From positions 1-21,674 of the forward strand of contig CAMPHU010000061.1 in the NCBI GenBank assembly GCA_946886065.1: DNA of 21,674 nucleotides, read 5' to 3'. Every line of letters begins with the position of its first letter. Position 1 is the stretch's first letter. Below are positions 2,956 to 20,836 of this stretch, in pieces. The notes under the pieces are model-generated. The model was given only the letters and a program-made list of their open reading frames with translations, did no database searches and had not been told where the DNA came from. A program made the position numbers and the translations under genes. Source of the stretch: an uncultured Massilia sp. GTDB taxonomy: Bacteria; Pseudomonadota; Gammaproteobacteria; Burkholderiales; Burkholderiaceae.

Positions 2956-4353
2956 ATGGACCTCAAGCTGTACGACACCTACGAGCGCGCGTTGCGCCCT
3001 TTCCAACCGATCCAGGCGGGACGCGTGGGCTTGTACGCCTGCGGTCCCACGGTCTACGATTATGCCCATATCGGCAACCTGCGCACCTACCTGTTCGGCG
3101 ACACCCTGCGCCGCGTGCTGGAACTGAACGGCTACACGGTCCACCACGTCGTCAACATCACCGACGTCGGCCACCTCACCTCGGACGGCGACACCGGCGA
3201 GGACAAGATGGAGAAGGGCACCCGGCGCACCGGCCGCTCGGCCTGGGACATCGCCGCCTACTACACGCAAGCCTTCCAGCACGACCTGGAGCAGCTCGGC
3301 ATCCGTGCGCCGGCCGTGTGGGCGCGCGCCACCGACCACATCCCCGAGCAGATCGCCTTCATCGCCGGGATCGAGCGCCAGGGCTATGCCTACCGGACCG
3401 GGGACGGCATCTATTTCGACACCGCGCGCCTGCCGGCCTATGGCCACCTGGCGCGCCTGAACACCGCCGGCCAGCGGGCCGGGCACCGGGTCGAGGCCGG
3501 CGGCAAGCGCTCGCCGGCCGACTTCGCGCTGTGGAAGTTCAGCGCCGAGGGCGAGCAGCGCCAGATGGAATGGGACAGCCCCTGGGGCCGCGGCTTCCCC
3601 GGCTGGCACATCGAGTGCTCGGCGATGTCGAGCAAATACCTGGGAGCGCTGTTCGACATCCACATCGGCGGCGAAGACCACATCCCGGTGCACCACTCGA
3701 ACGAGATCGCCCAGCACGAGGCCTGCCACGGCCATGCGCCGGCGCGCTACTGGCTGCATGGCGCCTTCCTGCAGCTGGAAAGCGGCGACAAGATGTCGAA
3801 GTCGGACGGCGGCTTCCTGCGCCTGGCAAGCGTGGCGGAACGCGGATTCGAGCCGCTGGCCTACCGCTACCTGGTGCTGACGGCCCACTACCGTTCGCCG
3901 CTGGCCTTCTCCTGGCCGGCGCTGCAGGCGGCGCAGACGGCGCTGAACCGCTTGCGCCAGGCCTGCCATGCGCTCCCTCAGGGCGGCGAGGCCGATCCGT
4001 CCTGGCGCAGCGCCATGCTGGCCGAGCTGAACGAGGACCTGAATACGCCGCGCGCGCTGGCCCTGGCCTGGGAGCTCCTGAAGTCGGGGTTGGACGGCAA
4101 GGCGAAGCGGGCCACGGTCGCGTGGCTGGACGGGGCCCTTGGCCTAGGCCTCGAACACTGGCGGCCGGCCGCGATCGCACTGCCCCAGGCGGTCAGGGAG
4201 CTGATCGAAGCACGCGGCCTGGCGCGCACGGAACAGCGCTGGAAGGATGCCGACGCGCTGCGCCTTGCGATCGAGGACGCCGGCTTCATCGTGCGCGACA
4301 CGGCGGACGGCCCGGTGGCCGAAGCGCTCAGGCCCGCGACACCGCTCCCGTGA
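2956..4353 (+). CDS. cysS: Cysteinyl-tRNA synthetase, divergent type
   Basis: The product is 465 residues, the usual length of CysRS, which attaches cysteine to tRNA-Cys using ATP. The start is ATG 2956 ([18 protein letters not shown]) with GGAG at 2947-2950; a frame from 2845 is longer but only covers the leader. The class I signatures are HIGN at residues 38-41 and KMSKS at 279-283. Zinc ligands expected from E. coli CysRS are present: C29, C221 (HIECSAM), H246 and E250. The C-terminal anticodon-binding region is kept, with [20 protein letters not shown]. The protein differs from the usual proteobacterial enzyme: [20 protein letters not shown] replaces the NITDIDDKI region, and [13 protein letters not shown] replaces the FPHHENEIAQ block. 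It may be a second CysRS acquired by transfer. Its last 26 bases overlap the convergent permease gene. Confidence 0.93.
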
Positions 4354-6049
4354 AGTGCTGCTCGATCTCTTCCAGCGTCTTGCCCTTGGTCTCGGGCAGC
4401 AGGAAGGCCGCGGTCAGGAAGTACAGCACCGAGAACGCGGCCCCGAAGAAGAACACGGTCGAGTAGCCGTAGTAGCCGACGGTCGGCAGGAACATGGCGG
4501 CGATCACGGTCGATACGAACTGGTTGATCAGGAGGGCGATGCTCATGCCGTTGGAGCGGATCCGGGTCGGCATCAGCTCGGACAGCGCCAGCCACACGCA
4601 CACGCCCGGCCCCACCGCGAAACCGGCCACGAACAGGCAGATCGCCAGCGCCACCTGCCAGCCGTGCGCCTCCGGCGGCACCGGGCCGAGCCAGGCGCGC
4701 TCGATGACGAGCGGCGCGTCCCTGGCGTCGGCCGGGTCGGCGAAGGGATTCAGGTGCCAGCGGCGCAGGGTGGCGCCGATCACGCTGTCCTCCTGCACCG
4801 TGTCTTCGCGGCGCAGGGTCATGGCGGGCAGCAGCGGGTCGTCGCTGCGCCGCGACTGCACGTTGGTGAACGGGCCGTAGGCATAGGCCACGGTCAGCTG
4901 CTGGCGCGCGTCGCCACTTCCGCCCAGGCTGGTGAGCTGGGCGCTATCCAGGCGCAGCGCCAGTTCCCCATTCTTCACCTGGGCCTCGACCGCCGCGCGA
5001 ACGTCGTGCTGCTCCGATTCCGCGCCGCGGAACAGCAGTCCCGCCGACACCAGCGCCACCACGATGCAGCCGCTGCCCAGTTTCAGGAGGAACTTGCGGC
5101 CTTTGCGGTCGACCAGGATGACCGCCACCACGGTCATGACGGCATTCAGCACCTTCAGGGCCACGTCCGCCGCGTTGGCGGTGGCGCCCGGCAGGCCGGC
5201 CTGGTTCAGGATCGTGACCACGTAGGCCAGGATCGAGTTGATGCCGGTGGCCTGGGTCAGCGCCAGCACCAGGCAGGCCAGCAGGAAGGGCAGCACGTAG
5301 CGGCGGCTGGCCAGGGAGTCGCGTCCGGTGGAAGCCTTTGCCGCGGGCCGGTCGATCTTGCCTTGCCCGCGCAAGGCCAGCCAGCGCGGCGACTCCTTGA
5401 GCGCCAGGCTGCCGGCGGTGAACACCAGGCCGGGCGCCAGGCAAAGCCAGAAGATGGTGCGCCAGGCGTGGTCCTGGGCCGCGAACACCGCGGCGGCCCG
5501 ATCGAGCGGCGCCAGGGCGGCGGCGGCCTGGGTGGCGGCATCGACATTCTGGGCCTGGCTCAGGCCGATGACGGCCGCGCCCACCAGGCCGATGGTCAGC
5601 ATCAGCTGGAACAGGGCCGCGCCGCGGCCGCGCTGGGCGGCCGGCAGCGATTCGGCCAGGTAGAGCGGCACCACCACGCCGATCAGGCCCCCGCTGACGC
5701 CCTGCAGCAGGCGGCCCAGCAGCAGCGGCGTGTAGCCGTCGGACAGCGAGATCATCGGGATACTGAGCGTGAACAGCGCGCCCGCCAGCACCATGGCCCA
5801 GCGCCGCCCGATGGCGTCGGCCAGCGCACCCGCGAACAGCGAAGACAGCACGGACCCGAGCAGCACCGCCGCCACGATGAAGGACAGCTGCTGGGTGCTC
5901 AGCTTCCAGGCCACCGTGGCCGTCGATTCCAGGTAGGGCAGGGCGCCGGCGATGATGCCGACGTCGATCCCGTACAGCAGGCCGCCCATGCCGGCGATGA
6001 ACAGCAGGTAGCGCTTGCCGCGCTCCGCCGAAGAGGTTGAAGCGTCCAT
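4328..6049 (-). CDS. MFS sugar-porter permease, probable GalNAc transporter (AgaP-like)
   Basis: A 573-residue inner-membrane protein of the sugar porter family. Start at ATG 6049-6047 with GGAG five bases upstream. Family marks: ALADAIGRR (residues 75-83), [29 protein letters not shown] (219-227), [13 protein letters not shown] (264-276), DRKGRK (314-319), [11 protein letters not shown] and [12 protein letters not shown] (552-563). Two loops predicted to face the periplasm are enlarged: about 30 residues after helix 5 (164-195) and about 120 mostly hydrophilic residues between helices 9 and 10 (341-463), unusual for the family. It is the last gene of the leftward aga operon, 25 bases after agaA, so the likely substrate is GalNAc (inference from context). 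MFS permeases fill this role in some proteobacterial GalNAc pathways that lack a PTS. Its 3' end overlaps the convergent cysS-like gene and no terminator is visible between them. Confidence 0.88.
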
Positions 6050-6074
6050 GGTGTCTCCGTCTATTTGGTGTTGG

Positions 6075-7175
6075 TCAGTTCAAGTCGATCGCTTCGCCTT
6101 CGACGAAGACGGCCACCGGACGCAGCGCTTCGTCGAGCACGACGATGTCGGCCCAGGCGCCCGGTTGCAGGCGTCCGCGCGAGGTCTCGCCCAGGTAGTC
6201 GGCCGGGTAGGTCGAGACGCGCAGCGCGGCGTCGGCCAGGTCCAGGCCCAGGCCGACGAAATTGCGCAACGCCTGGTCCATGGTCAGCACGCTGCCGGCC
6301 AGCGAACCGGCGCCTTGTCCATCATCGATCAGGCGCACGCAGCCCGCGCACTTGAACACGCGCTGGGTGCCGAGCGCGTATTCGCCGTCCGGCATGCCGG
6401 TGGCGGAGGTGGCGTCGGTGATGCCGTACAGGCGCGGGATCGCGCGCAGGGCGGCGTGCAGTGCGCCGGGGCTCACGTGCTCCAGGTCGGGAATGATCTC
6501 GGCGTACTCGGCGTGCGCCAGGGCCGCGCCGACGATGCCGGGCTCGCGGTGGTGGATGCCGGTCATGCCGTTGTACAGGTGGGTGAAGCCCGCCGCGCCG
6601 GCGCGCAGCGCGGCCACGCCGTCTTCGTAGCTGCCGTTGCTGTGGCCGACCTGGACCCGGATGCCGAGCGCGGCGAGGTCGGGAATCAGCGCCAGGTGGC
6701 CGTCGACTTCCGGCGCGATGGTCAGCACGCGGATCGGCGCCATGGCGTGCAGGCTGCGTACCAGCTCCAGGGTGGCGGGAATGACGTCGGGGGGCTGGGC
6801 GCCCAGGCGCTTCTGGCTGAGGAAGGGGCCTTCCAGGTGCACGCCCAGCATGCGCGCGCCGCCTTGCGGACGCTCGGCGATCGCGCCGGCCAGGCCGCGC
6901 AGGGCGCGCCGGATGTCGAGCTCCTTGGCGGTCATGGTGGTGCCGAGCAGGGAGGTGGTGCCGTACCTGGCGTGGGTGCGGGCGATGATGGCGCCCGCAT
7001 CGCCGCCCTGCATCGTGTCGGCGCCGGCCGCGCCGTGCACGTGCAGGTCGACGAAGCCGGGGAGGATGGTGTGCATGCCCGCGGCAGGGCCTTCGATGAT
7101 CCGGTGGATGCAGTCGCTGAACTCGATGCTGCCTGTGATCCAGCCTTGGGGAGTAAGGATTCTGCCGCTGAGCAT
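6075..7175 (-). CDS. agaA: N-acetylgalactosamine/glucosamine-6-phosphate deacetylase
   Basis: The product is 366 residues, an amidohydrolase of the NagA/AgaA family that removes acetate from amino-sugar 6-phosphates in the cytoplasm. Motifs in order: PGFVDLHVHG with H45 and H47, LGVHLEGPFL with the metal-binding Glu, VQVGHSNGSYEDG, FTHLYNGMTG, the catalytic Asp in GITDATSATGMPDGEYALG, and the substrate loop GSLAGSVLTMDQAL. The start ATG (7175-7173) directly abuts the TAA of the upstream DeoR gene with no gap, so translation is probably coupled. NagA and AgaA are hard to separate by motif alone; agaS, agaZ and alpha-GalNAc hydrolases as neighbours favour GalNAc-6-phosphate as substrate. Activity on both sugars is possible. 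Confidence 0.88.
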   Translation of the reverse strand: MLSGRILTPQGWITGSIEFSDCIHRIIEGPAAGMHTILPGFVDLHVHGAAGADTMQGGDAGAIIARTHARYGTTSLLGTTMTAKELDIRRALRGLAGAIAERPQGGARMLGVHLEGPFLSQKRLGAQPPDVIPATLELVRSLHAMAPIRVLTIAPEVDGHLALIPDLAALGIRVQVGHSNGSYEDGVAALRAGAAGFTHLYNGMTGIHHREPGIVGAALAHAEYAEIIPDLEHVSPGALHAALRAIPRLYGITDATSATGMPDGEYALGTQRVFKCAGCVRLIDDGQGAGSLAGSVLTMDQALRNFVGLGLDLADAALRVSTYPADYLGETSRGRLQPGAWADIVVLDEALRPVAVFVEGEAIDLN

Positions 7176-7943
7176 TTATTCCGCTATGAGTAATTCGATG
7201 CCCAGCTTTTGCAGCCCTTCGCGGTATTCGGGGCTGACGCTGGCATCGGTGATGACGGTATGGACCCGGTCCAGCTGCACGATGCGGTGCAGGCTGACAC
7301 GGCCGAATTTGGAAGCGTCGGTGAGCACGATGATCTTCTTCGCGCGCTCGACCATCTTGTGGTTCAGGCTGGCCTCGGCCTCGTGGTGGGTGGTGACCCC
7401 GAACTGCAGGTCGAAACCGTCGACCCCGAGGAAGAGCTTGTCGAAGTTATAGGCCTGCAGGGTGGCCTCGGCCTGGCTGCCCTGGATCGACAGCGACTGC
7501 TTGCGCAGCAGGCCGCCGGTCAGGATCAGGTCCACGCCCGGCGACTCGGCCAGCTCCCAGGCGATGTTCAGGCCATTCGTCATCACCGTCACGTTGTTCG
7601 CATCGCGCAGGTGGCGCGCCAGCGAGATGGTCGTCGTGCCCGAGTCGATGATGATGTTGTCGCCTTCCTGCACCAGGGTGGCGGCGAGGGCGCCGATGCG
7701 CTCCTTCTGCGCCTGGTTGATCGCATCCTTCTGGCGGATCGTGTGCTCGGTCGGCGGCGTGCGCATCAGGGTGGCGCCGCCGTGGCTGCGGGTGGCCAGT
7801 CCCTGCGCCTCGAGCGCGCTCAGGTCGCTGCGGATGGTCACCGCCGACACGCCGTACTCCTGCACCAGGTCGGTCACCTGGACCGATCCCTGGCGGGTCA
7901 GGAGCTGGAGGATGGCTTCGCGGCGTTGGGTGGTGTTTCGCAT
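7176..7943 (-). CDS. agaR: DeoR-family regulator, probable GalNAc repressor AgaR
   Basis: The product is 255 residues, the normal DeoR length. It has an N-terminal winged helix (about residues 6-57: VTDLVQEYGVSAVTIRSDL, then GLATRSHGGA) and a C-terminal DeoRC effector domain with IIIDSGTTT (97-105), VMTNGLNIA, LTGGLLRK, GVDGFD (173-178), TTHHEAE and LTDASKFGR. These DeoRC motifs bind phosphorylated sugars, so the inducer is likely GalNAc-6-phosphate or galactosamine-6-phosphate (inference). It is encoded inside the operon it would control. The ATG at 7943 lacks a clear Shine-Dalgarno and follows a hairpin 35 bases after the agaZ stop. Predicted targets are the CGAAAG boxes at 11369-11696, which resemble the CTTTCG-type repeats described for proteobacterial AgaR sites. 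Confidence 0.85.
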   Translation of the reverse strand: MRNTTQRREAILQLLTRQGSVQVTDLVQEYGVSAVTIRSDLSALEAQGLATRSHGGATLMRTPPTEHTIRQKDAINQAQKERIGALAATLVQEGDNIIIDSGTTTISLARHLRDANNVTVMTNGLNIAWELAESPGVDLILTGGLLRKQSLSIQGSQAEATLQAYNFDKLFLGVDGFDLQFGVTTHHEAEASLNHKMVERAKKIIVLTDASKFGRVSLHRIVQLDRVHTVITDASVSPEYREGLQKLGIELLIAE

Positions 7944-7955
7944 GATGGCGGATCG

Positions 7956-7978
7956 GCTCGACGGTAAAAACGCCGAGC
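7956..7978 (-). other. Intercistronic hairpin between agaZ and agaR
   Basis: In the leftward transcript GCTCGGCG and CGTCGAGC form an 8-bp stem with one G-U pair around a seven-base loop, TTTTTAC, directly after the agaZ stop codon. No T-run follows, so it is more likely an mRNA-stability or processing element, or a partial attenuator, than a full terminator. Confidence 0.45.
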
Positions 7979-9304
7979 TTAACAGATTGATACCTGCTTG
8001 TTGACTGCCTGCGCCGCATTGCGCTTGCAGGCCCGCGCATACTGCGCCAGCACGCGGCCGATCTTGTGCTCCAGCAGCGCGCGGCTGGCGGTTCCCAGCT
8101 GGCCCTGCAGCACGTCCAGGTACTGTTCCGGCAGGTGCTGGCTAAGGAGCGGCAGCGGAATCTCGATCGCGTCCAGGTTGGCGAACAGCTGCTCCACGGC
8201 GGCCGCCACCGGCGCTTCGCCCCAGTAGTAGCGGCAGCGGTCGGACAGGCCGTAGCGGCGCATCACGCGCTGCTCGTCGCTGCTGCCCGGGTAGTGCTTG
8301 CGCCAGTGTTCGGGCTTGGCCAGCATCACCTCGTCCAGCACCTGCATCAGGCGCGAGGAGCGCTCCGGCGCCACCAGCTCGTCCTCGATCTGGCACAGGG
8401 CCAGCAGGCCTTCGCGCAGGGCGAAGGTGGCGGCCGGGCCCACCTTGAGGATGGCGAAGTGGTCGCGCACCATCTCGTGCAGGCCGGATTCCTTCTGGTA
8501 GTCGGTGGAATGCGCCTCGAACACCAGGCCGGGCTGGCCCGCCACGAAAGCCGACAGGCTGGCCGCCTGGGCCGCGTCGTAGTGCTGGATATGGCTGTGG
8601 TCGAAGTCCACGCCCGGCTGCACCACCATGGCGATCACGCGGCGCCAGGCGTCGTGCAGGCCGGCGTCGAGGAAGGCGCGGCAATGCACTTCCAGCGTGC
8701 GCTGCGCCGCCTGCGGCGAGGTCGGCGCGCCCGCATCGGCCAGGGCCGACTCGCCGCCCGGCACCGGCACTTCGGTGCCGATCACATACACCGGCGGCGG
8801 GTGGCCGGCGCCGCGTGCGGCGGCTTCGGCCACGATGGCCAGGCGCACCGCGCGCCCGGCGACGATGGCGTCGTCCAGGGTCTGCGGGTCGTCGGCGCAG
8901 CGCATGCTGCAGTCCAGGTGGATCTTGTGGAAGCCGGCCGCCGCGTAGGCCGCGACCAGGGTCTCGGCCTTGGCCATGGCTTCCATTGCGGGGCGGCCCT
9001 GCCAGCCATTGGGGCCCAGGTGGTCGCCTCCCAGCACCAGGCGGTCGGGTGGAAAGCCGCGCTCGCGCGCCAGCTGTTCGACATAGGCGCGGAAGCGGGC
9101 CGGATTCATGCCGGTGTAGCCGCCGTACTGGTCGACCTGGTTCGAGGTCGCTTCGACCAGCAGCAGGGTGCCGTAGTCCTGCGCCACGCGCATGGCGGCG
9201 GTGAGGACGATCGGATGGCTGCAGCAGACGCTGTACAGTCCTGCCGCTTCGCCGCGGCGGTGCGCCTTGATGACTTGCTGGATGGGGGAGAGGGCCTGGC
9301 TCAT
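7979..9304 (-). CDS. agaZ: D-tagatose-6-phosphate pathway protein AgaZ/KbaZ (GatZ family)
   Basis: The product is 441 residues, typical of the GatZ/KbaZ family. The start MSQALSPIQQVIKAHRRGEA lies at ATG 9304-9302; the frame continues to 9904 only as a shadow of agaK. Family blocks include YSVCCSHPIVLTAAM, EATSNQVDQYGGYTGM (51-66), LGGDHLGPNGW (91-101), HKIHLDCSMRC, FEAHSTDYQ and HFAILKVGPAATFALRE. Family members were first described as the non-catalytic subunit of tagatose-1,6-bisphosphate aldolase; comparative genomics of GalNAc pathways has proposed a tagatose-6-phosphate kinase role. Either places it after AgaS. The start overlaps the agaK stop as ATGA, showing tight coupling. The partner aldolase KbaY/AgaY is not in this window. 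Confidence 0.93.
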   Translation of the reverse strand: MSQALSPIQQVIKAHRRGEAAGLYSVCCSHPIVLTAAMRVAQDYGTLLLVEATSNQVDQYGGYTGMNPARFRAYVEQLARERGFPPDRLVLGGDHLGPNGWQGRPAMEAMAKAETLVAAYAAAGFHKIHLDCSMRCADDPQTLDDAIVAGRAVRLAIVAEAAARGAGHPPPVYVIGTEVPVPGGESALADAGAPTSPQAAQRTLEVHCRAFLDAGLHDAWRRVIAMVVQPGVDFDHSHIQHYDAAQAASLSAFVAGQPGLVFEAHSTDYQKESGLHEMVRDHFAILKVGPAATFALREGLLALCQIEDELVAPERSSRLMQVLDEVMLAKPEHWRKHYPGSSDEQRVMRRYGLSDRCRYYWGEAPVAAAVEQLFANLDAIEIPLPLLSQHLPEQYLDVLQGQLGTASRALLEHKIGRVLAQYARACKRNAAQAVNKQVSIC

Positions 9305-11368: not shown

Positions 11369-11401
11369 CGAAAGAAACGTAAAAAGTTTTTAGTGCGATC
11401 A

Positions 11402-11430
11402 ATCTTAAATAGAAAGTTTGCGAAAGTCAA
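11402..11430 (-). promoter_or_regulatory. Promoter of the leftward aga operon
   Basis: Reading leftward, TTGACT (11430-11425, five of six consensus matches) and TAAGAT (11407-11402, four of six) are separated by exactly 17 bases. CGAAAG/AGAAAG boxes at 11411, 11421 and 11434 overlap the spacer and -35, as expected for repression by the DeoR-family protein. Confidence 0.65.
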
Positions 11431-11636
11431 ACACGAAAGCAAAACGAAAGATATACGCGTGGAGGATGGGGCATTCTGACGTCCAGGCCCATCGAGCGCA
11501 GGCGATTTGCGCATGCTCTTGTGTTTGTTGCGCCACAATTCGAAAGTTTGCCTAGCAATTTTTCGATCAATCGAAAGATTTATCATGGCTTTCGTTCGCG
11601 GTTTGGAACTTTTTTAGGCTTTTTCTTTCCTTTTTG

Positions 11637-11665
11637 TTGACCTTCTTTGTTTTTGTTCATACATT
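11637..11665 (+). promoter_or_regulatory. Promoter of the rightward glycosidase/TonB operon
   Basis: TTGACC (11637-11642, five of six matches) and TACATT (11660-11665, four of six) are 17 bases apart. Transcription would start near 11672, leaving a leader of about 34 bases before the GH31 start. A CGAAAG box at 11691-11696 lies in the leader and three more boxes lie upstream at 11541-11594. Confidence 0.6.
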
Positions 11666-11705
11666 ATCCTCATCAAATCGCAAAACGATCCGAAAGACCT
11701 TGTCC

Positions 11706-14700
11706 ATGAAGCACGCATCTTCCCTGCATCGTCCTCTCGCTGTGTCGCTCCTGGCGCTGGCTGTCTCCTCCGCCTGGGCCGCGCCCCTCGGCGGCCTGCG
11801 CAGCGTCAGCCCGGGCCAGGCCGACGGCCCGTCCTGGGACCTGGTCTCGGATTCCGGCGCCCGCGTCCGTGTGAGCCTGCCGCGTGCGGATGTGGTGCGC
11901 ATCCAGGCCGGCCGCAAGGAACTGACCGGCCCCGGCGACAAGGCCGCGCCGATCGTGGTCGCCACGGCCGCCGGCGACGTGAAGCACGAATTCAAGGAAG
12001 AGAACGGCCAGCTGGTGTTCCGCACCGATGCGCTGACCCTGCGCGTGGACCGCAAGCCGCTGCGCTTCACCCTGTACCGCGCCGGCGAGACCCAGCCGCT
12101 GTGGCGCGAGCTGCAGGCCATCGACCTCGGCGACAAGCAAAGCGTGCAGGTGCTCTCCAGCGACAAGGCCGAGCGCTTCTTCGGCGGCGGCCAGCAGAAC
12201 GGCCGCTTCGAATTCAAGGGCCGCGAACTGCCGGTCTCGTACTCGGGTGGCTGGGAAGAGGGCGACCGTCCGAATCCCGCGCCCTTCCTGATGAGTTCCC
12301 GCGGCTGGGGCATGCTGCGCAACAGCTGGGCCGACGGCAACTACGACCTGCGCGAGGACAAGCAGCTCACCCTGCAGCACGCCGAGGGCCGCTTCGACGC
12401 CTATTACTTCGTCGGCAAGTCGATGCACGAGGTGCTGGCGCGCTACACCGAATGGACCGGCCGGGCGCGCATGCTGCCGCGCTGGGCCCTCGAATATGGC
12501 GACGCCGACTGCTATAACGACGGCGACAACGTCAAGAAACCGGGCACCGTGCCGCGCGGCTGGACCGACGGCCCCACCGGCAAGACGCCGGACGTGATCG
12601 ACAGCGTCGCGCGCAAATACCGCGAGCACGACATGCCGGGCGGCTGGATCCTGCCGAATGACGGCTACGGCTGCGGCTACACCGCGCTGCCGGAAACCGT
12701 GCAGGGCCTGGCGAAGCAGGGCTTCCGCACCGGACTGTGGACCGAGAACGGCGTCGACAAGATCGCCTGGGAAGTCGGCCAGGCCGGCAGCCGCGTGCAG
12801 AAGCTGGACGTGGCCTGGACCGGCAAGGGCTACCAGTTCTCGCTGGACGCCAACAAGTCCGCCTACGACGGCATCCTGAACAATTCGGATAGCCGCCCCT
12901 TCATCTGGACCGTGATGGGCTGGGCCGGCACCCAGCGCTACGCGGTGGCATGGACCGGCGACCAGAGCGCCAGCTGGGACTACATCCGCTGGCACGTGCC
13001 GACCCTGATCGGCTCCGGCCTGTCCGGCCAGGCTTACGCCACCGGCGACGTGGACGCCATCTTCGGCGGCAGCCCCGAAACCTTTACCCGCGACCTGCAG
13101 TGGAAGAGCTTTACCCCGGTGCTGATGGGGATGTCCGGCTGGTCGGCCAGCGCGCGCAAGCATCCGTGGTGGTTCGACGAGCCTTACCGCAGCATCAACC
13201 GCCGCTACCTCAAGCTCAAGCTGCGCCTGACGCCCTACATGTACAACCTGGCGCGCGAGGCCGAGGACACCGGCGCGCCGATCGTGCGCGGCCTGATGTG
13301 GGATCATCCGGACGACCCGGCCGCGCTGCTCGAAACGCACAAATACCAGTTCCTGCTGGGCCGCGACCTGCTGGTGGCGCCGGTCTACCGCAGCCAGGCC
13401 GTGAGCCAGGGCTGGCGCAAGGGCATCCACCTGCCGCAGGGCCGCTGGATCGATTACTGGGACGGCCGCCAGCTCACGGCCGGCGCGCCAGGGAAGGACA
13501 TCGACCTCCAGGTCAGCCTCGACAAGCTGCCGGTCTTCGTGCGCGCCGGCGCCATCGTGCCGATGTACCCGGAGATGCTGTACGACGGCCACAAGCCGAA
13601 AGACAGGCTTACCCTCGACCTGTATCCGCAGGGCGAGTCCGACTACACCCTGTACGAAGACGACGGCAACACCCGCCGCTACCAGCAGGGCGCCTTCAGC
13701 CGCCAGAAGATATCCATGCGCGAGGCGGGCGGCAAGGTGGAGGTCACCATCCATCCGGTCGAAGGCGCCTACGACGGCCAGGAAGCGAAGCGCGGCTACA
13801 GCCTGCGCATGCCCAGCCGCCAGCGTCCCGCCAAGGTGCTGATGAAGAACGCCGCGCTGAAAGAGCTGCCCGGCCGCGCCGAGTTCGACGCCGCCGATGC
13901 GGGCTGGTACTTCGATGCCACCGAACGCCTGGGCACCGTGCACGTCAAGGCGCCGGTCCAGGACATCCGCCAGGCCCTGGCCTTCGCGCTGGAAGGCATC
14001 ACCCGGGCCGCGGGCGACGATGCCTTCCCCGCCGCCCCGCCGCAAGGCCGCGCGCTGCCGCCGGACGCCATGGTCGTGGTGAACCGTCCTGCGGAAGAGC
14101 CGGGTCACCCGATGGAGAACGCGTTCGACGGCAATCCGGCCACCTGGTTCCGCACCGTGCGCAGCCAGGCCGTGAAGAGCGGGGCCCACGAATGGGTGAT
14201 CGGCTTCACCGAGCGCCGCCTGGTGGACGGCATCGAGATCGCGCCGCGCAGCGACGCCAACTGGAAGCACGGCCAGGTGCGCGACTACGAGATCTACCTG
14301 GCGGACAGCAATGGCGAGTGGGGCACGCCGGTCAAGCGCGGCCAGCTGACCCTGTCGAAGGACGTGCAGACCATCGCCTTCCCGGCCAGCGCCGGCCGCC
14401 TGCTGCGCTTCCGCGTGCTGAGCACCCAGAACCCGGACGGCAGCGGGGCAGCCGGCACCGATCCGATGGTCACGGCGGTCTCCGGCGGCGCGGCCGCCCG
14501 CGCCTTCGACGCCGCGGCCCCGGCCGAGGTGGCGCCGATCACCCTGTCCGAGTTCCGCATCCTCGAACACCCGGTGCCGGAGGGCCAGGAACTGCGGCGC
14601 TACCTGAGCGAGCTGCCGCTGCCGAAGAAGCTCGGCCGCGACAAGCCCGCCGGCAAGGCCAGCGAAATGCGCATGAACGGCCTGCGCTTCAACAGGGGCG

Positions 14701-15020
14701 TCGGCATGGGCCCGGCCGGTCGCCTCGACCTGCAGCTGGGCGGCGCCTGGCGCCTGCTGCGCGCCGACCTGGGCGTGGATGACAGCTGCCGCGAGGCGGG
14801 CGGGCTGCGCTTCCAGGTGTGGAGCGGCGAGCGCCTGCTCTACGACAGCGGCCTGGTGAAGGCCCCGGCCGTGGTCAAGCCGGAGATCGACGTGCGCGGA
14901 CTGGGCCAGCTCAGCCTGCGAACCCTCGGCGCAACGGGCGCCCAGCCTGCGCGAACGTGCGGCAACTGGGGCAACGCCGTGTTGATCGGCACGGAAGGCG
15001 CCACGGTCAAGCCCCGCTAG
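11706..15020 (+). CDS. Exported GH31 enzyme, probable alpha-N-acetylgalactosaminidase, with two C-terminal carbohydrate-binding domains
   Basis: A 1104-residue protein from ATG 11706 (MKHASSLHRPLAVSLLALAV), with a signal peptide cleaved after SSAWA. The ATG is chosen over an upstream TTG because it starts the signal peptide and follows the promoter. Residues about 40-255 form the N-terminal beta domain and about 256-560 the GH31 barrel, followed by beta domains to about 760. Blocks such as WILPNDGYGCGYT (314-326), TGLWTENGVDKIAWEVG (342-358) and VMGWAGTQRYAVAWTGDQ (403-420) resemble GH31 alpha-N-acetylgalactosaminidases (subfamily 18) rather than alpha-glucosidases. The likely nucleophile is D368 in KLDVAWTG and the acid/base D419 in WTGDQ. 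A CBM32/F5-8C-like domain spans about 786-905 (HPMENAFDGNPATWF) and an NPCBM-like domain about 960-1095. It probably releases terminal alpha-GalNAc from glycans in the periplasm or outside. First gene of the rightward operon. Confidence 0.88.
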   Translation: MKHASSLHRPLAVSLLALAVSSAWAAPLGGLRSVSPGQADGPSWDLVSDSGARVRVSLPRADVVRIQAGRKELTGPGDKAAPIVVATAAGDVKHEFKEENGQLVFRTDALTLRVDRKPLRFTLYRAGETQPLWRELQAIDLGDKQSVQVLSSDKAERFFGGGQQNGRFEFKGRELPVSYSGGWEEGDRPNPAPFLMSSRGWGMLRNSWADGNYDLREDKQLTLQHAEGRFDAYYFVGKSMHEVLARYTEWTGRARMLPRWALEYGDADCYNDGDNVKKPGTVPRGWTDGPTGKTPDVIDSVARKYREHDMPGGWILPNDGYGCGYTALPETVQGLAKQGFRTGLWTENGVDKIAWEVGQAGSRVQKLDVAWTGKGYQFSLDANKSAYDGILNNSDSRPFIWTVMGWAGTQRYAVAWTGDQSASWDYIRWHVPTLIGSGLSGQAYATGDVDAIFGGSPETFTRDLQWKSFTPVLMGMSGWSASARKHPWWFDEPYRSINRRYLKLKLRLTPYMYNLAREAEDTGAPIVRGLMWDHPDDPAALLETHKYQFLLGRDLLVAPVYRSQAVSQGWRKGIHLPQGRWIDYWDGRQLTAGAPGKDIDLQVSLDKLPVFVRAGAIVPMYPEMLYDGHKPKDRLTLDLYPQGESDYTLYEDDGNTRRYQQGAFSRQKISMREAGGKVEVTIHPVEGAYDGQEAKRGYSLRMPSRQRPAKVLMKNAALKELPGRAEFDAADAGWYFDATERLGTVHVKAPVQDIRQALAFALEGITRAAGDDAFPAAPPQGRALPPDAMVVVNRPAEEPGHPMENAFDGNPATWFRTVRSQAVKSGAHEWVIGFTERRLVDGIEIAPRSDANWKHGQVRDYEIYLADSNGEWGTPVKRGQLTLSKDVQTIAFPASAGRLLRFRVLSTQNPDGSGAAGTDPMVTAVSGGAAARAFDAAAPAEVAPITLSEFRILEHPVPEGQELRRYLSELPLPKKLGRDKPAGKASEMRMNGLRFNRGVGMGPAGRLDLQLGGAWRLLRADLGVDDSCREAGGLRFQVWSGERLLYDSGLVKAPAVVKPEIDVRGLGQLSLRTLGATGAQPARTCGNWGNAVLIGTEGATVKPR

Positions 15021-15060
15021 ACCACCTTTAACCTCAAGCGATGTCGGAGCCCCCTCCCTG

Positions 15061-15080
15061 GAGCGGGGAGGACCCCGCTC
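15061..15080 (+). other. Intercistronic hairpin between the GH31 and GH109 genes
   Basis: A perfect 8-bp stem, GAGCGGGG (15061-15068) with CCCCGCTC (15073-15080), and an AGGA loop. No T-run follows. A competing pairing of CCTCCC at 15053-15058 with the GGGAGG segment is also possible. It may shield the upstream mRNA from decay or tune the ratio of the two enzymes; it does not look like a terminator. Confidence 0.5.
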
Positions 15081-15114
15081 ATCCTTCGCATCGAAAAAAA
15101 GACGGAGACAGCAT

Positions 15115-16476
15115 ATGAAACGACGCAATTTTCTTTCCCTGGGTTCGGCGCTGGCAGGCAGCGCGCTGTCGGCGGGCGTGATGTCGAACGCTTCGGCGGC
15201 AAGCCGCGAGCGCCTGCGCATCGGCATGATCGGCACCGGCATGCGCGGCCAGGTGCTGCTGCGCGAGCTGGTGCGGCGCGACGACGTGGACGTGGTGGCG
15301 CTGTGCGACATCGAGCCCATCATGCTGGGCCGCGCGGTCGAGATGGTGACCAAGGCCGGCAAGGCGCGTCCCGCCACCTTCGGCGACAACGGCCACAGCC
15401 TGGATTACCGGCGCATGCTCGACGCCAGTAAGCTCGACGGCGTGATCATCGCCACCCCTTGGGAATGGCATGCGCCGATGGCCATCGAAGCCATGCGCGC
15501 CAAGGTGCCGGTCGGCTGCGAAGTGGTGGCCGGGGTGACGCTGCAGGACCACTGGGACGTGCTGGACGCCCAGCGCAAGAGCGGCACGCCCTACATGCTG
15601 CTCGAGAACGTCTGCTACCGGCGCGACGTGCTGGCCGTGCTGCGCATGGTGAGGTCAAGCCTGTTCGGCGAACTGGTGCACCTGCAGGGCGGCTACCAGC
15701 ACGACCTGCGCGCCGTGAAGTTCAACAGCGGCGACCCCGCCAAGCCCTACGGCGGCGGCGTGGAATTCGGCCAGAAGGGCTGGTCCGAGGCGCGCTGGCG
15801 CACCGAGCACTCGGTGCGCCGCAACGGCGAGCTGTATCCGAGCCACGGCATCGGCCCCATCGCCATGTACACCAACATCAACCGCGGCAACCGCTTCACC
15901 CGCATCAACGCCTTCGCCACCAAGGCGGCCGGGCTGCACGACTACGTCTTGCGCCAGGGCGGCAAGGAGCATCCGAACGCAAAGACCCGTTTCAGCCTGG
16001 GCGACATCGTCACCACCACGCTCTCCTGCGACAACGGCGAGACCGTCATCCTGCAACACGATACCTCCCTGCCGCGTCCGTATTCGCTGGGCTTCCGCGT
16101 GCAGGGCACGCGCGGGCTGTGGATGGACCTGAACCGCTCGGTGCACGTGGAGGGGATCAGCAAGCCGCATGAATGGGACGACTTCAAGGGCTGGCAGGAC
16201 AAGTACGAGCACCCGCTGTGGCGCAAGTACGGCGAACGCGCGGCCAGCGCGGGCCATGGCGGCATGGACTTCTTCGTGATCCACGCCTTCATCGAGGCGC
16301 TGAAGGAGAACGCGCCCATGCCCATCGATATCTACGACGCCATTACCTGGAGCGCGATCACGCCGCTGTCCGAGCAATCGATCGCCCTCGGCTTCCAGAC
16401 CCTCGACTTCCCGGACTTTACGGGCGGCCAGTGGCGCAGCCGCAAACCGATCTTCGCTTTCGACGACCGCTATTGA
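15115..16476 (+). CDS. GH109 alpha-N-acetylgalactosaminidase, Tat-exported
   Basis: A 453-residue protein of the Gfo/Idh/MocA fold. The start MKRRNFLSLGSALAG carries a twin-arginine motif (RRNFL), fitting export of a folded, cofactor-loaded enzyme; it has a GGAG ribosome binding site. The Rossmann site is GMIGTGMRG (37-45). GH109-like blocks are ATPWEWHAPMA (113-123), CEVVAGVTL, ENVCYRRDVLAVLRM (164-178), QGGYQHDLRAVKFN, YPSHGIGPIA with H244 (241-250), NRGNR and GHGGMDFF (380-387). GH109 enzymes cleave terminal alpha-GalNAc by an NAD-dependent oxidation, elimination and addition cycle, as on blood group A antigen. A general Gfo/Idh/MocA oxidoreductase is the alternative, but these blocks and the neighbours strongly favour GH109. 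It is 94 bases after the GH31 gene and 38 before the next gene. Confidence 0.88.
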   Translation: MKRRNFLSLGSALAGSALSAGVMSNASAASRERLRIGMIGTGMRGQVLLRELVRRDDVDVVALCDIEPIMLGRAVEMVTKAGKARPATFGDNGHSLDYRRMLDASKLDGVIIATPWEWHAPMAIEAMRAKVPVGCEVVAGVTLQDHWDVLDAQRKSGTPYMLLENVCYRRDVLAVLRMVRSSLFGELVHLQGGYQHDLRAVKFNSGDPAKPYGGGVEFGQKGWSEARWRTEHSVRRNGELYPSHGIGPIAMYTNINRGNRFTRINAFATKAAGLHDYVLRQGGKEHPNAKTRFSLGDIVTTTLSCDNGETVILQHDTSLPRPYSLGFRVQGTRGLWMDLNRSVHVEGISKPHEWDDFKGWQDKYEHPLWRKYGERAASAGHGGMDFFVIHAFIEALKENAPMPIDIYDAITWSAITPLSEQSIALGFQTLDFPDFTGGQWRSRKPIFAFDDRY

Positions 16477-16514
16477 CGCGGACTCATGCTGTCCCACTTC
16501 CCGAGGAGAACCAG

Positions 16515-17813
16515 ATGAAATCCAGGATGCTGATGTTGAATGCCGTCGCAATCGCCTTGCTCGGTTGCGCCCATGTCCACGCCGAACCGCGCGCAGCGGT
16601 GATCCCCATCGCCGGGAAGAAGGCGGTCGTGGCGGCGCCCCTGAACGTGGCGCTGGCGGGCAATGCCTTCGTCACAACGACGGGAGCCGGTGCGACCGAG
16701 ACCATCACGTCGAACGGCCTGTCCAACTGGACCAGCCCGTCCACCGTCACCAGCATCTGGTTCCGGATGGCGCAGGCAGGCAGCGCCACCATCGGCCTGG
16801 ACGCCAGCCTGTCCGGCAGCAAGAGCAGCACCGTGCGCGTCACCGTCAACGGCACGCCCTACACGCTCACCCTGAGCAAGGGCGCGAAGAAGACCTATAC
16901 CGTGGGCACGCTCGACCTGCCGGCCGGCTACATCAAGGTCGACCTGCAGGGCGTGAGCAAGGATGGGGGCTATTTCGGCGACGTCGCCGGCCTCACCGTC
17001 GACACGGCGGCCCCGGTCAACTATGCGAACGACGCCGCCAACTACTACTGGTCGCGCCGCGGCCCCTCGGTCCACCTGGGCTTTTCGGTGCCGGCGAATA
17101 CCGAGTACTTCTACAGCGAGTTATCGGTGCCGGTGGGGCAGGACGCGATCGGCTCCTACTACATGGCCAACGGCTTCAACGGCGGCTACTTCGGCATCCA
17201 GGTCAATTCGCCGTCCGAACGCCGCGTGCTGTTCTCGATCTGGGACGCCGACAACGGCGCCAAGACCACCCTGGTGGGCAAGGGCGCGGGCGTGGTGGAC
17301 AACGGCTTCGGCGGCGAAGGCACGGGCGGACAGTCCTACCTGCTGTACAACTGGGTGGCGGGCAATACCTACCGCTTCGTCACCCGCGTGCGTCCGGACG
17401 GCGCCGGCGCCACCGATTTCTCGGCCTGGTTCTTCGCGCCGGAACTCGGCACCTGGCGCTACATCGCCACCTGGAAGCGCCCGGCGACCACGACCTACCA
17501 CGCGGGCGTGTATTCCTTCCTCGAGAACTTCCTCGACACCAGGGGCTACCTGGGCCGCCTCGCCGAATACGGCAACCAGTGGGCGCGTTCCACCAGCGGG
17601 ACCTGGAGCGAGATCACCGGCGCGCGCTTCACCGGCGACGCCACCGCCGCCAACGCCCAGCGCATGGATTACGCGGGAGGGCTTCGTGGCAACGGGTTCT
17701 ACCTGCGCAACGGCGGCTTCTTCAGCGACTACGTCCCGATCAACCAGAACTTCACCCGTCCCGCGCTGGGCGCCGCGCCCGGCGTGGACGTGAACACGCT
17801 GCCCATGCAGTAA
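16515..17813 (+). CDS. Exported DUF5077-DUF3472-like protein of unknown function in the GalNAc operon
   Basis: A 432-residue protein from ATG 16515 with GAGGAG at 16503-16508. The N-terminus (MKSRMLMLNAVAIALLGCAH) is a signal peptide; cleavage after HVHA is possible, or LLGC at residues 15-18 could be a lipobox, making it a lipoprotein. Residues about 35-155 form a beta-rich domain like DUF5077, with WFRMAQAGSATIGLDAS. Residues about 165-360 match the DUF3472 pattern: SRRGPSVHLGFSVPANTEYF, GSYYMANGFNGGYFGIQVNS, PSERRVLFSIWDADNG and GGEGTGGQSYLLYNW. The C-terminal part has WSEITGARFTGDAT. Such proteins occur beside glycan-degradation genes, but I know of no established activity. Its place between GH109 and the TonB receptor suggests glycan binding or an untested glycosidase or esterase role (inference). 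Confidence 0.8.
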   Translation: MKSRMLMLNAVAIALLGCAHVHAEPRAAVIPIAGKKAVVAAPLNVALAGNAFVTTTGAGATETITSNGLSNWTSPSTVTSIWFRMAQAGSATIGLDASLSGSKSSTVRVTVNGTPYTLTLSKGAKKTYTVGTLDLPAGYIKVDLQGVSKDGGYFGDVAGLTVDTAAPVNYANDAANYYWSRRGPSVHLGFSVPANTEYFYSELSVPVGQDAIGSYYMANGFNGGYFGIQVNSPSERRVLFSIWDADNGAKTTLVGKGAGVVDNGFGGEGTGGQSYLLYNWVAGNTYRFVTRVRPDGAGATDFSAWFFAPELGTWRYIATWKRPATTTYHAGVYSFLENFLDTRGYLGRLAEYGNQWARSTSGTWSEITGARFTGDATAANAQRMDYAGGLRGNGFYLRNGGFFSDYVPINQNFTRPALGAAPGVDVNTLPMQ

Positions 17814-17851
17814 GCGATTTACACACAAAATTATTACAAAAGGAGAGGCAC

Positions 17852-20836
17852 TTGAAACTCAAGACATTGATCGCCGCGCTGGCGGCCGCAGGAATGGCGT
17901 CGAGCGCACTGGCCGCCGGCCAGGTGGATGACAACACGGCCAGCAAGGACGAAGGCAAGCCCGAAAAGATGGCGCGGGTCGAAGTGACCGGCTCCAGCCT
18001 CAAGCGCATCAACGCGGAAACCGCGTCCCCGGTGCAGGTGGTGGACGCCAAGCAGATCGAGAACATGGGCGCGCGCACCCTGATGCAGGTGCTGGACAAC
18101 CTGCCGGCGGCGCGTCCCGCCCAGCAGGACTTCCGCTCGATGTTCACCGGCTCGGACGGCGGCTCGCAGGCCAACCTGCGCGGCCTGGGCGCGCAAGGGA
18201 CCCTGGTGCTACTCAACGGCCGCCGCCTGTCCTTCTACGGCGCGCCGTCCGGCTTCCAGACCATGTTCGTGAATATCGACGCGATTCCGGCGGCGGCGAT
18301 CGAACGCATGGAGATCCTGACCGACGGCGCCTCGGCGGTGTACGGCTCGGATGCGGTGGCGGGCGTGATCAACGTGATCACCAAGAAGAACTACCAGGGC
18401 CTGGAAGCGCGTGCCAGCTATGACACTTCCGCCGAGGTCAAGTCCTACGGCGAGAAGCAGGGCAGCCTGCTGTTCGGCACCGGCGACCTGGCCGAAGACG
18501 GCTACAACATCTACGGGTCGGTCAACGTCTACCAGCGCGACCGCATCTCGCTGGCCGACACCTACGACAAGCGCCCGGACTACTTCTACGTCAACAACCC
18601 GAACTTCATCTCCAACTTCCGCATCGGCACCGGCAGCGAGCCGGGCGTGCTGAACCCGGGCACCCTGTTCGTGTTCGACCCGGCCCGCAACAACGCGCGC
18701 GTCCAGCGCGCGGTGGGCGGCTGCCCGACCGCGATCACCGAGGCGTCCGGCACCCGCTGCGTGTGGAACAACCTGCCGTATGCCCTCGATACCGGCCCGA
18801 CCTCGGACCGCATCACCGGCTACCTCGCCGGCCGCAAGCGCTTCGGCGGCGACCTGGAAGGCTTCGCGGAAGCGGCCTACACCCACATCCGCATGCGCGG
18901 CGAGAACGGTCCGCGCAGCTTCAATAGCGGCAGCACCAATAACTGGTTCGCGCGCAATACCGGCACCAAGCTGAATACCTTCGCCATTCCCTACCTCGGC
19001 CCGAACAACGTCTACCTGCAGGGCAGGCTGTCGCCGGAGATGGCGGCCATGATGGGCGGCGCGGCCGGCCTGAACTACCTGATGCAGGACGCCGTCGGCC
19101 ACTTCGGCCAGAAAAACGTGGACGACAGCTACCGCGCCCTGGCCGGCCTGCGCGGCAGCGTGTTCGGCGACTGGGAATTCGAGACCGCGCTGAGCATCGC
19201 CGGCAGCCACTCGACCCTGTACCAGACCATCAACATCAACACGGCCGGTTTCGCCAAGGCCTTCGGCCCGTTCACCACCGATCCGGTGACCGGCCGCACC
19301 TACATCGCCGACAACCCGGCCTACAAGTTCGGCGAGATCAGCGAGGCCAATGCCGCGCTGCTGCGCGAAGCCTACCCGACCTTCGACATCCAGTCCTGGA
19401 CCAAGCTGATCACCTGGGACGGCAAGATCGAAGGCACCCTGATGAAGCTGGGCGACCGCGAAGTGCGCGCCGCCTTCGGCGCCAACCTGATGCGCGAGAG
19501 CTTCGACACCCCGGGCAATCCCGACGCGGCCAACGGCCTGATCACCCAGCAAGGCGGTTCCTGGTTCGACGGCGAGCGCACCATCAGCGCGGTGTTCGGC
19601 GAAGTGGTGGTGCCGGTCACCGACAAGCTGGAAGTCAACGCCGCCGCACGCCTGGACAAGTACCCGAACTTCAGCGCCAACCTCGCGCCGAAGATCGGCG
19701 TGGTGTGGCGCGCGCGTCCGGAGGCGATGGTGCGCGGCACCTATTCCGAAGGCTTCCGCGCCCCCAACCTGGCCGAATCCGGCTCGGGCGGCGTGTTCGC
19801 CCAGGTGGGCGGCATCCGCGACACCGTGCGCTGCGACGAAACCAACGCCATCGCGCGCCTGTTGATGAAATCGGCCACCGCCACCGAGGTCGACCTGGGC
19901 AAGAGCCTGCTCAACTCCAACTGCTCGACCACGGTCGGCGGCCTGACCCCGCCGAACCCGGACCTGCAGCCGGAGAAAGCCAAGATCGCGACCGTGGGCC
20001 TGGTGCTGCAGCCGATCAAGGACCTGAGCATTTCCTTCGACTACTGGTATGTGAAACGCCGCAACGAGATCGTGCGCCAGGACTTCAACGAGCTGTTCAC
20101 CGAGCTGGTGGACCAGTACGGCCCGGCCCTGGCCGGCACCGACAAGGCGATCCGCAACGACCTGACCGACGCCGACCGCGCCAACGTGGCGGCCGTGGCC
20201 ACCATGTGCGCCAACCCGGCCAACGCGGCGGCCTGCGCCGGCGGCCTGCCGAGCTACTCGGTGGGCAACCTGGGCGGCCTGATCAACTCCTACCTGAACC
20301 GCGGCAGCACCCTGGTCGACGGCTTCGACATCGATGCCCGCACCCGCATCTCGCTGGGCGACTGGGGCCGGCTGAACACCGGCGCGGCGGTGACGATCCG
20401 GCGCCGCGAGACCTATGACTATGGCGACGGCAGCGGCTTCTCGGGCAACTATGTCGGCTACTACAACTCGCCGCGCGTGCGCGGCACGGTCAACGCCGAC
20501 TGGGTGTACGGGAACTTCACCACCAGCCTGTTCGTGAACTACACGGGCGGGACCAAGTGGGCCTACGGCGACTACGACCTTGATAACACGCCCGAGAACT
20601 GCACCGCGGCGGGCGTGTCCCTGCCGGAAGAGCTGTGCGACGGCGCGCCCTCGTACACGACGGTGAACCTGGGCTTCAACTGGAAGCCGATGAAGAACCT
20701 GAACCTGGGGATCAACATCAAGAACGTGCTCGACAAGAAACCGTACTACGATCCGAACGGCTGGGAAGGCTACAACCATAGCCAGAACCTGTTCGGCCGC
20801 CAGTTCGCGTTCTCGGCCAGCTACAAGTTCTGGTAA
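17852..20836 (+). CDS. TonB-dependent outer-membrane receptor, probable GalNAc-glycan importer
   Basis: A 994-residue receptor. The start is TTG 17852, placed by AGGAG at 17841-17845 six bases upstream and by the signal peptide MKLKTLIAALAAAGMASSALA that begins exactly there; no upstream ATG fits. After a short linker comes the plug domain (about 45-178): VEVTGSSLKRINAETASPVQ, NLRGLGAQGTLVLLNGRRL, then IERMEILTDGASAVYGSDAV and AGVINVITKK. The rest is the beta-barrel, with FRAPNLAESG, NPDLQPEKA and a terminal aromatic FAFSASYKFW. There is no N-terminal signalling (STN) domain, so it should not signal through an anti-sigma factor. It is the last gene of the rightward operon, 38 bases after the DUF3472-like gene. 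The substrate, GalNAc-containing oligosaccharide, is inferred from context. It ends 31 bases before a strong terminator. Confidence 0.93.
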   Translation: MKLKTLIAALAAAGMASSALAAGQVDDNTASKDEGKPEKMARVEVTGSSLKRINAETASPVQVVDAKQIENMGARTLMQVLDNLPAARPAQQDFRSMFTGSDGGSQANLRGLGAQGTLVLLNGRRLSFYGAPSGFQTMFVNIDAIPAAAIERMEILTDGASAVYGSDAVAGVINVITKKNYQGLEARASYDTSAEVKSYGEKQGSLLFGTGDLAEDGYNIYGSVNVYQRDRISLADTYDKRPDYFYVNNPNFISNFRIGTGSEPGVLNPGTLFVFDPARNNARVQRAVGGCPTAITEASGTRCVWNNLPYALDTGPTSDRITGYLAGRKRFGGDLEGFAEAAYTHIRMRGENGPRSFNSGSTNNWFARNTGTKLNTFAIPYLGPNNVYLQGRLSPEMAAMMGGAAGLNYLMQDAVGHFGQKNVDDSYRALAGLRGSVFGDWEFETALSIAGSHSTLYQTININTAGFAKAFGPFTTDPVTGRTYIADNPAYKFGEISEANAALLREAYPTFDIQSWTKLITWDGKIEGTLMKLGDREVRAAFGANLMRESFDTPGNPDAANGLITQQGGSWFDGERTISAVFGEVVVPVTDKLEVNAAARLDKYPNFSANLAPKIGVVWRARPEAMVRGTYSEGFRAPNLAESGSGGVFAQVGGIRDTVRCDETNAIARLLMKSATATEVDLGKSLLNSNCSTTVGGLTPPNPDLQPEKAKIATVGLVLQPIKDLSISFDYWYVKRRNEIVRQDFNELFTELVDQYGPALAGTDKAIRNDLTDADRANVAAVATMCANPANAAACAGGLPSYSVGNLGGLINSYLNRGSTLVDGFDIDARTRISLGDWGRLNTGAAVTIRRRETYDYGDGSGFSGNYVGYYNSPRVRGTVNADWVYGNFTTSLFVNYTGGTKWAYGDYDLDNTPENCTAAGVSLPEELCDGAPSYTTVNLGFNWKPMKNLNLGINIKNVLDKKPYYDPNGWEGYNHSQNLFGRQFAFSASYKFW

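Follow-up and report, generated by a model that had tools for sequence, protein, structure and literature searches.

How would an environmental bacterium obtain N-acetylgalactosamine (GalNAc) from glycans, and what would become of the tagatose-6-phosphate to which this sugar leads? Both questions are raised by a stretch of 21,674 nucleotides from an uncultured Massilia sp. (contig CAMPHU010000061.1; this whole stretch is referred to here as the window), whose list of open reading frames and translations gives ten open reading frames in two divergent operons of a Massilia-like genome. A first-pass annotation had described these ten genes as a GalNAc-glycan utilization locus independent of the phosphotransferase system (PTS), and all ten are indeed present as open frames. 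We consider it reasonably probable that this is an AgaR-controlled locus for the use of GalNAc from O-glycosylated proteins, in which AgaZ ends the pathway as an epimerase. The features of the locus are as follows, with families assigned by Pfam and NCBIfam together with first Protein Data Bank (PDB) sequence searches for five of the proteins.

4328..6049, minus strand: major facilitator superfamily (MFS) sugar porter, predicted inner-membrane GalNAc permease (PF00083)
6075..7175, minus strand: NagA/AgaA-type deacetylase (TIGR00221, just under cut-off)
7176..7943, minus strand: AgaR, DeoR-family repressor (NF040755)
7979..9304, minus strand: AgaZ (GatZ/KbaZ family), predicted tagatose-6-phosphate 4-epimerase (TIGR02810, seven GatZ residues)
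9301..10245, minus strand: ROK-family sugar kinase, predicted GalNAc kinase in the role of AgaK (PF00480)
10232..11368, minus strand: agaS-like SIS-domain protein, predicted galactosamine-6-phosphate (GalN-6-phosphate) deaminase/isomerase (PDB sequence search, TIGR02815)
11369..11705, no strand: divergent promoter region holding eight CGAAAG/CTTTCG sites that are putative AgaR operators (site clustering)
11706..15020, plus strand: secreted GH31 closest to alpha-N-acetylgalactosaminidases (alpha-GalNAcases; GH31_18 type), with F5/8-type C and NPCBM domains (PDB matches)
15115..16476, plus strand: GH109, predicted NAD-dependent alpha-GalNAcase (PF21252, 2ixa)
16515..17813, plus strand: DUF5077 (CBM35/CBM6-like) and DUF3472 protein, predicted di-glutamate O-glycoprotein peptidase (mucinase)
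17852..20836, plus strand: TonB-dependent outer-membrane receptor with a TTG start (PF07715 and PF00593)

The minus-strand operon has the order agaS-ROK-agaZ-agaR-nagA/agaA-MFS and is tightly packed, with a 14-bp overlap between agaS and the ROK gene, a 4-bp overlap between the ROK gene and agaZ, a 35-bp gap between agaZ and agaR, abutting agaR and nagA genes, and a 25-bp gap between nagA and the MFS gene. The plus-strand operon has the order GH31-GH109-DUF5077/DUF3472-TonB receptor, and the TTG start of the receptor gene is preceded by AGGAG. Comparison of this order across Oxalobacteraceae genomes had been put forward as a check on the first-pass annotation. A scan of genome contigs with AgaS gave 158 relatives; we kept the best 80 loci, of which 39 (L001 to L038 and L045; AgaS 56 to 92% identical) were treated as related loci. 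They come from Massilia, Duganella, Rugamonas, Pseudoduganella, one Oxalobacteraceae isolate, three metagenome bins, and one Paucibacter. All six genes stand in the order agaS-ROK-agaZ-agaR-nagA-MFS in 38 of the 39 loci, the remaining one (L034) being broken off by a contig end, and this recurrence excludes a chance origin of the gene grouping. The fetched flanks of the 39 loci contain GH31 in at least 35 cases, GH109 in at least 32, a TonB receptor (>50% identity) in at least 29, and DUF3472 in at least 21; these counts are lower bounds, because a further fetched region (L110) shows GH109 and DUF3472 genes just beyond the flank of L010. The other 41 of the best 80 loci (from actinobacteria, Vibrio, Shewanella, and Firmicutes) have fewer genes in common with the window.

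The closest relative, Massilia sp. ZL223 (locus L001, genome G001), has locus proteins 89 to 99% identical to those of the window. Among 62 genomes of its genus, 13 carry the AgaS type of the window (67 to 92% identity), 13 carry a type that is 45 to 50% identical, and 36 have none at an E value of 1e-60. In a broader family sample of 145 genomes, AgaZ occurs in 18 (10 at 73 to 95% and 8 at 48 to 52% identity). A GalNAc diet had been called unexpected for an environmental betaproteobacterium; with at least 39 loci across several genera, it is not the oddity of a single strain.

The two glycosidases point to alpha-linked GalNAc. The best PDB matches of the GH31 protein are 6m76, 7f7r, and 7f7q (366 to 363 bits; the next match has 185 bits), two of which are labelled as GH31 alpha-N-acetylgalactosaminidases, and Asp residues (D368 and D419) are present at both of the positions that we take to be catalytic. 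The enzyme is therefore closest to alpha-GalNAcases of the GH31_18 type, as judged from these matches. The GH109 protein matches PF21252 (274 bits) and the nucleotide-binding N-terminal domain PF01408 (35.3 bits), and it aligns with 2ixa over almost the full length (E = 4e-150). Its N terminus looks twin-arginine-like by eye. With GH31 nearest to alpha-GalNAcase structures, GH109 nearest to 2ixa, and AgaR passing the curated model NF040755 (337.9 versus a cut-off of 260 bits), GalNAc is well supported as the sugar of this locus, and the DeoR regulator named in the first-pass annotation stands. A non-PTS locus aimed at alpha-GalNAc is thus supported by homology, gene order, and the repeated promoter motif described below.

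Which glycoconjugate supplies the alpha-GalNAc is less certain. According to PMC11992087, a GH109 of Bacteroides thetaiotaomicron favours blood group A, and a GH31 is active on desialylated mucin and inactive on Tn or blood group A. In PMC13096917, a characterized GH31_18 enzyme cleaved p-nitrophenyl-alpha-GalNAc and left the native substrates tried (including mucin, blood group A, and Tn) uncut, which speaks against a glycoprotein substrate. Hence, of the mucin-type or blood-group-A-like source proposed in the first-pass annotation, the alpha-GalNAc part holds, and the blood-group-A part comes solely from the activity of other GH109 enzymes.

The intracellular enzymes were also weighed against a reading in which the locus serves GlcNAc (N-acetylglucosamine) or mixed amino sugars instead of GalNAc. 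Two observations would fit such a locus: the nearest solved relatives of the ROK kinase are the GlcNAc kinases 7p7i and 4db3 (followed by the putative regulator 2ap1), and the deacetylase is NagA-like. AgaS, AgaZ, and AgaR, however, are of galactosamine-branch families, both glycosidases are of the alpha-GalNAcase type, and all 24 related genomes have separate nagA genes (one or two further copies per genome, 57 to 66% identical to that of the window), so that the copy in the locus is likely dedicated to it. We therefore regard a GlcNAc locus as very improbable. The GalNAc specificity of the kinase would follow from its gene context, and the protein shares 45% identity with the ROK protein that Shewanella ANA-3 has in its aga locus (L057). 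AgaS has its best PDB matches in 3odp, 3c3j, and 3i0z, annotated as putative tagatose-6-phosphate ketose/aldose isomerase (E values from 3e-78 to 2.2e-74). The GlcNAc-kinase neighbours of the ROK protein count against the GalNAc assignment, as do two scores below the NCBIfam cut-offs, i.e., those of AgaS (TIGR02815; 403.1 versus 529.2 bits) and NagA (TIGR00221; 222.6 versus 225.65 bits). The NagA score fits a diverged AgaA role and is no proof of it. The families listed in the first-pass annotation (AgaS, AgaZ, AgaA, ROK kinase, GH31, and GH109) were thus recovered by family matches, but AgaS and NagA miss the stricter thresholds.

The MFS porter has an insertion of approximately 115 to 125 residues between predicted transmembrane segments 9 and 10 (residues ~345 to 459, from hydropathy and alignment), which is to our knowledge unusual for the family. 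The insertion can be seen in the 9 rows viewed of the 38 aligned, and it has invariant columns in 19 sequences. In a structure model with a mean predicted local distance difference test (pLDDT) score of 62.8, it forms a small alpha/beta domain, predicted with a confidence above that of the membrane part.

What would set the GalNAc free from protein? A locus member that the first-pass annotation had left unnamed, the DUF5077-DUF3472 protein, is predicted to be a di-glutamate mucinase. Its DUF3472 part matches the fold of HC7, the di-glutamate mucinase of Bacillus cereus, at 21 to 24% identity; E337 is aligned with Glu200 of HC7, and E268 is aligned with the Glu of the GGEGTG motif, which would be the second catalytic Glu of HC7. 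Both residues are invariant in 24 of 24 DUF3472 sequences. HC7 reportedly goes back to Narimatsu in 2024, an attribution taken from the reference list of a citing paper with mismatched numbering. The DUF3472 domain (PF11958) occurs once per genome in 18 of the 24 related genomes, and by contig and position it adjoins the aga locus in 14 of these 18, being unlinked in G008, G009, G014, and G023. Three points weigh against a mucinase: the low identity to HC7, the nearest DUF3472 structure (4qhw), which is titled a putative sugar hydrolase, and the six of the 24 genomes in which PF11958 was not found. An alternative in which the locus serves an alpha-GalNAc polymer other than a glycoprotein (such as galactosaminogalactan of fungi or a polysaccharide of the bacterial envelope), with the DUF3472 protein acting as a polysaccharide hydrolase or lyase, would agree with the title of 4qhw; we consider it rather unlikely. 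The substrate is better read as a GalNAc-O-glycoprotein, because the predicted mucinase shares both linkage and promoter repeats with the aga genes.

These repeats lie in the 337-bp intergenic region between the two operons, which contains 8 of the 14 CGAAAG sites of the window (expected, 0.22; P = 8.7e-12); none of 2000 shuffles of the region reached 8 sites. The count over the whole window is ordinary (14 versus 8.93 expected, reached by 8 of 100 shuffles), and only the clustering is unusual. In all 39 related loci, the 500 bp upstream of agaS contain at least two sites, of which one lies between positions -55 and -84. Upstream of the four unlinked DUF3472 genes (L106 to L109), two CTTTCG sites 22 bp apart directly precede the start set by homology in every case. 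Same-strand neighbouring CTTTCG pairs within 40 bp occur 69 times in the 864,259 bases of the 39 loci and L106 to L109; 64 of these pairs are upstream of agaS, 4 are at the unlinked DUF3472 genes, and 1 is inside agaS of L038. These observations suggest that the CGAAAG/CTTTCG repeats are AgaR operators, and presumably they resemble the AgaR consensus of Escherichia coli. The unlinked DUF3472 genes may belong to the aga regulon as stand-alone members; on the other side of the balance, the four cases are not independent, because Duganella accounts for three of the four genomes, and a longer operator pattern did not hold up. This pattern (CTTTCGATNNATCG), drawn from the window and three DUF3472 promoters, was dropped as an aga operator: with at most one mismatch it occurs in 2 of the 39 related loci (upstream of agaS in L009 and elsewhere in L023) and never exactly, and its 18 exact genome-wide matches, in 10 of the 24 genomes, include 3 DUF3472 promoters (the backward-read control gave 0).

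The last step concerns AgaZ, which has been filed successively as a kinase, as an aldolase subunit, and lately as an epimerase. Leyn is said to have proposed in 2012 that it is a tagatose-6-phosphate kinase. The window AgaZ scores above the cut-off of TIGR02810 (592.6 versus 568.8 bits) and below those of the narrower models for KbaZ (576.4 versus 707 bits) and GatZ (500.3 versus 579 bits). In PMC11907403, GatZ and KbaZ of E. coli convert fructose-6-phosphate to tagatose-6-phosphate, and the modelled active site of GatZ comprises the proposed Zn ligands H88, E171, and H257 and the proposed catalytic D87, plus C20, E44, and K279. Like these 4-epimerases, AgaZ keeps all seven listed residues, as C27 (C20 in GatZ), E51 (E44), D94 (D87), H95 (H88), E178 (E171), H265 (H257), and K287 (K279), and none of the seven varies among the 39 proteins aligned (window, L001 to L033, L035 to L037, L041, and L045; L034, L038, and L057 were left out because their frames are cut or could not be set).

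The rival to an epimerase is the classical GalNAc route, in which tagatose-6-phosphate is phosphorylated by AgaZ or 6-phosphofructokinase (PFK) and then cleaved to triose phosphates by fructose-bisphosphate aldolase (Fba) or by an aldolase of another kind with AgaZ as a subunit. Its proponents can point to the earlier proposal of AgaZ as a kinase for tagatose-6-phosphate, which the review PMC12118421 repeats while naming tagatose-6-phosphate as the AgaS product, and to the name of TIGR02810 itself, "class II aldolase, non-catalytic subunit." That AgaZ conserves the GatZ Zn ligands and its catalytic Asp argues against it, and so do the partner genes, which we searched for in 24 main-panel relatives and 19 further genomes (30 with the AgaS type of the window and 13 with the other type; for six added genomes of the window type, the type was assigned by AgaS alone) and in 14 controls. 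The AgaY/KbaY/GatY model TIGR01858 was over its cut-off in none of the 43 relatives (0 of 24 and 0 of 19) and in 1 of the 14 controls, whereas E. coli also has the aldolases GatY and KbaY, according to PMC11907403. Each genome has one partial, two-piece match to TIGR01858, and the one checked (L081) is a class II Fba (TIGR01521; 593 versus 496.35 bits). LacD was over the cut-off in 0 of 19 genomes, and the LacC/PfkB-type model TIGR03168 was over it in 0 of 24 and 0 of 18 genomes (three of them shared) and in 6 of the 14 controls. Weak 1-phosphofructokinase matches were rejected as tagatose-6-phosphate kinases; of two pieces checked, one was an HldE heptose-kinase-like fragment (327.7 versus 345 bits), and the other had no match.

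PFK (PF00365) is absent in 3 of the 24 main-panel and 15 of the 19 further genomes or, by AgaS type, in 6 of the 30 genomes with the type of the window (among them three of the six added ones) and 12 of the 13 with the other type. In G003 (Massilia strain 9I) this is hardly an assembly gap, because the locus lies on a contig of 5,513,514 bases and the whole genome measures about 5.5 Mb. A further argument, that the window AgaZ has no P-loop, is a weak one against a kinase, because PFK- and PfkB-type kinases have none either. The points that count against an epimerase are that 21 of the 24 main-panel genomes encode a PFK-family protein, so that the classical route stays possible in PFK-bearing genomes; that these include the closest relative, G001, whose PFK (L086) passes NF002872 for ATP-dependent 6-phosphofructokinase; that Fba might cleave tagatose-1,6-bisphosphate; and that PMC11907403 terms its own epimerase mechanism a hypothesis. 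Overall, we think the classical route improbable. As far as conserved residues and gene content indicate, AgaZ most likely converts tagatose-6-phosphate by 4-epimerization, without a kinase or aldolase; AgaZ may work without these two enzymes, and in some genomes it probably must. With no AgaY-type partner over the cut-off in 43 genomes and no PFK in some of them, the tagatose-6-phosphate step named in the first-pass annotation fits a 4-epimerase (AgaZ) better than a kinase-plus-aldolase route.

Put together, the proposed route would run as follows: (i) the DUF5077-DUF3472 protein clips GalNAc-bearing protein; (ii) the TonB receptor imports glycopeptides or glycans; (iii) GH31 and GH109 release alpha-GalNAc; (iv) the MFS porter carries GalNAc into the cytoplasm; (v) the ROK kinase converts it to GalNAc-6-phosphate; (vi) the NagA-like AgaA deacetylates GalNAc-6-phosphate; (vii) AgaS converts GalN-6-phosphate to tagatose-6-phosphate; and (viii) AgaZ turns this into fructose-6-phosphate by C4 epimerization. 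If AgaZ does so, a tagatose kinase and a bisphosphate aldolase would therefore be unneeded. We infer the enzymatic activities, the cellular locations, the GalNAc specificity of the kinase, porter, and receptor, and the binding of AgaR to the repeats. More tentatively, at somewhat less than an even chance in our judgement, environmental Oxalobacteraceae would have a complete AgaR-controlled pathway from O-glycoprotein to fructose-6-phosphate, with a CBM-DUF3472 di-glutamate mucinase, two alpha-GalNAcases, and an AgaZ epimerase, bypassing the tagatose-bisphosphate branch, in some genomes of necessity (those with no PFK).

Shewanella already offers an example of this pathway type, and none of the enzyme families is new. 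Like the non-PTS Aga pathway of Shewanella, for which PMC2996990 names agaP, omp-Aga, agaA-II, agaK, and agaS, the window has a ROK-type kinase and a permease in place of a PTS, AgaS, AgaZ, AgaR, a NagA-like deacetylase, and an outer-membrane receptor. The Shewanella ANA-3 locus contains homologs of agaR, GH109, agaZ, agaS, ROK, and nagA; the window MFS gene has no tblastn match there at E = 1e-10, and the locus's own permease was not pinned down. Unlike Shewanella, the window adds GH31 and the DUF3472 protein, and its gene order differs. The polysaccharide utilization locus BT4240-50 of B. thetaiotaomicron combines a peptidase, a GH109 alpha-GalNAcase, an MFS protein, and a GalNAc kinase for O-glycoproteins (PMC11992087), and the window likewise joins a candidate peptidase, GH109, MFS, and predicted GalNAc kinase in one locus. 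BT4240-50 uses an M60-like O-glycopeptidase and SusC/SusD uptake, whereas the window has a DUF3472-type candidate peptidase, a lone TonB receptor (a Pfam scan found no SusD domain in the ten locus proteins), and AgaA/AgaS/AgaZ catabolism. The window protein resembles HC7 in its DUF3472 fold and both aligned Glu residues, and it differs in having an N-terminal DUF5077 where HC7 uses a CBM5 (PMC13003899). The locus would thus work like the Shewanella non-PTS Aga pathway with a mucin-processing front end like that of BT4240-50.

Relative to the literature consulted, two elements are new: a DUF3472 candidate mucinase linked to GalNAc catabolism by neighbourhood and promoter repeats, and genomic evidence that AgaZ may do without a tagatose kinase and aldolase, as in some genomes it probably must. 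In open-access searches, the literature naming DUF3472 concerned centipede venom and Drosophila viruses only, no paper among those listed had Massilia or Duganella with mucin or GalNAc as its subject by title, and no assignment of 4-epimerization to a GalNAc locus was found by title or abstract start among the listed papers on AgaZ, KbaZ, or GatZ. If the proposal is true, the GalNAc pathway could have a shorter end, di-glutamate mucinases would extend beyond HC7 and the family would gain a genomic context, and feeding on mucin-type O-glycoproteins would not be confined to the gut. Because some genomes with the AgaS type of the window match none of the PFK, AgaY, LacC/PfkB, and LacD models, the AgaZ question can be tested directly in a free-living host.

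Around the ten genes, a frame at 2956 to 4353 (cysS-like by eye) shares 26 bp with the end of the MFS gene, and a minus-strand frame at 1699 to 2766 has the look of what we take to be a TctC/Bug-type solute-binding protein. A frame after the receptor gene (20958 to 21572; TetR-like by eye) has a homolog in 5 of the 39 related loci (L001 to L004 and L006). Another type of locus in the genus of the closest relative (L101 to L105; genomes G149, G198, G171, G183, and G195) has agaZ and agaS with an AgaR homolog, and the AgaY model was over the cut-off in none of these five genomes. In L102 and L104, the two of these loci that were scanned, a BadF/BadG-type kinase gene (PF01869) comes next and replaces the ROK kinase gene; in L104, a melibiase-like hydrolase and a TonB receptor are encoded as well. 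Several Streptomyces loci (e.g., L042, L044, L047 to L050, L054, and L055), which have none of the other genes of the window at E = 1e-10, contain agaZ and agaS genes together and may offer another setting for AgaZ acting alone.

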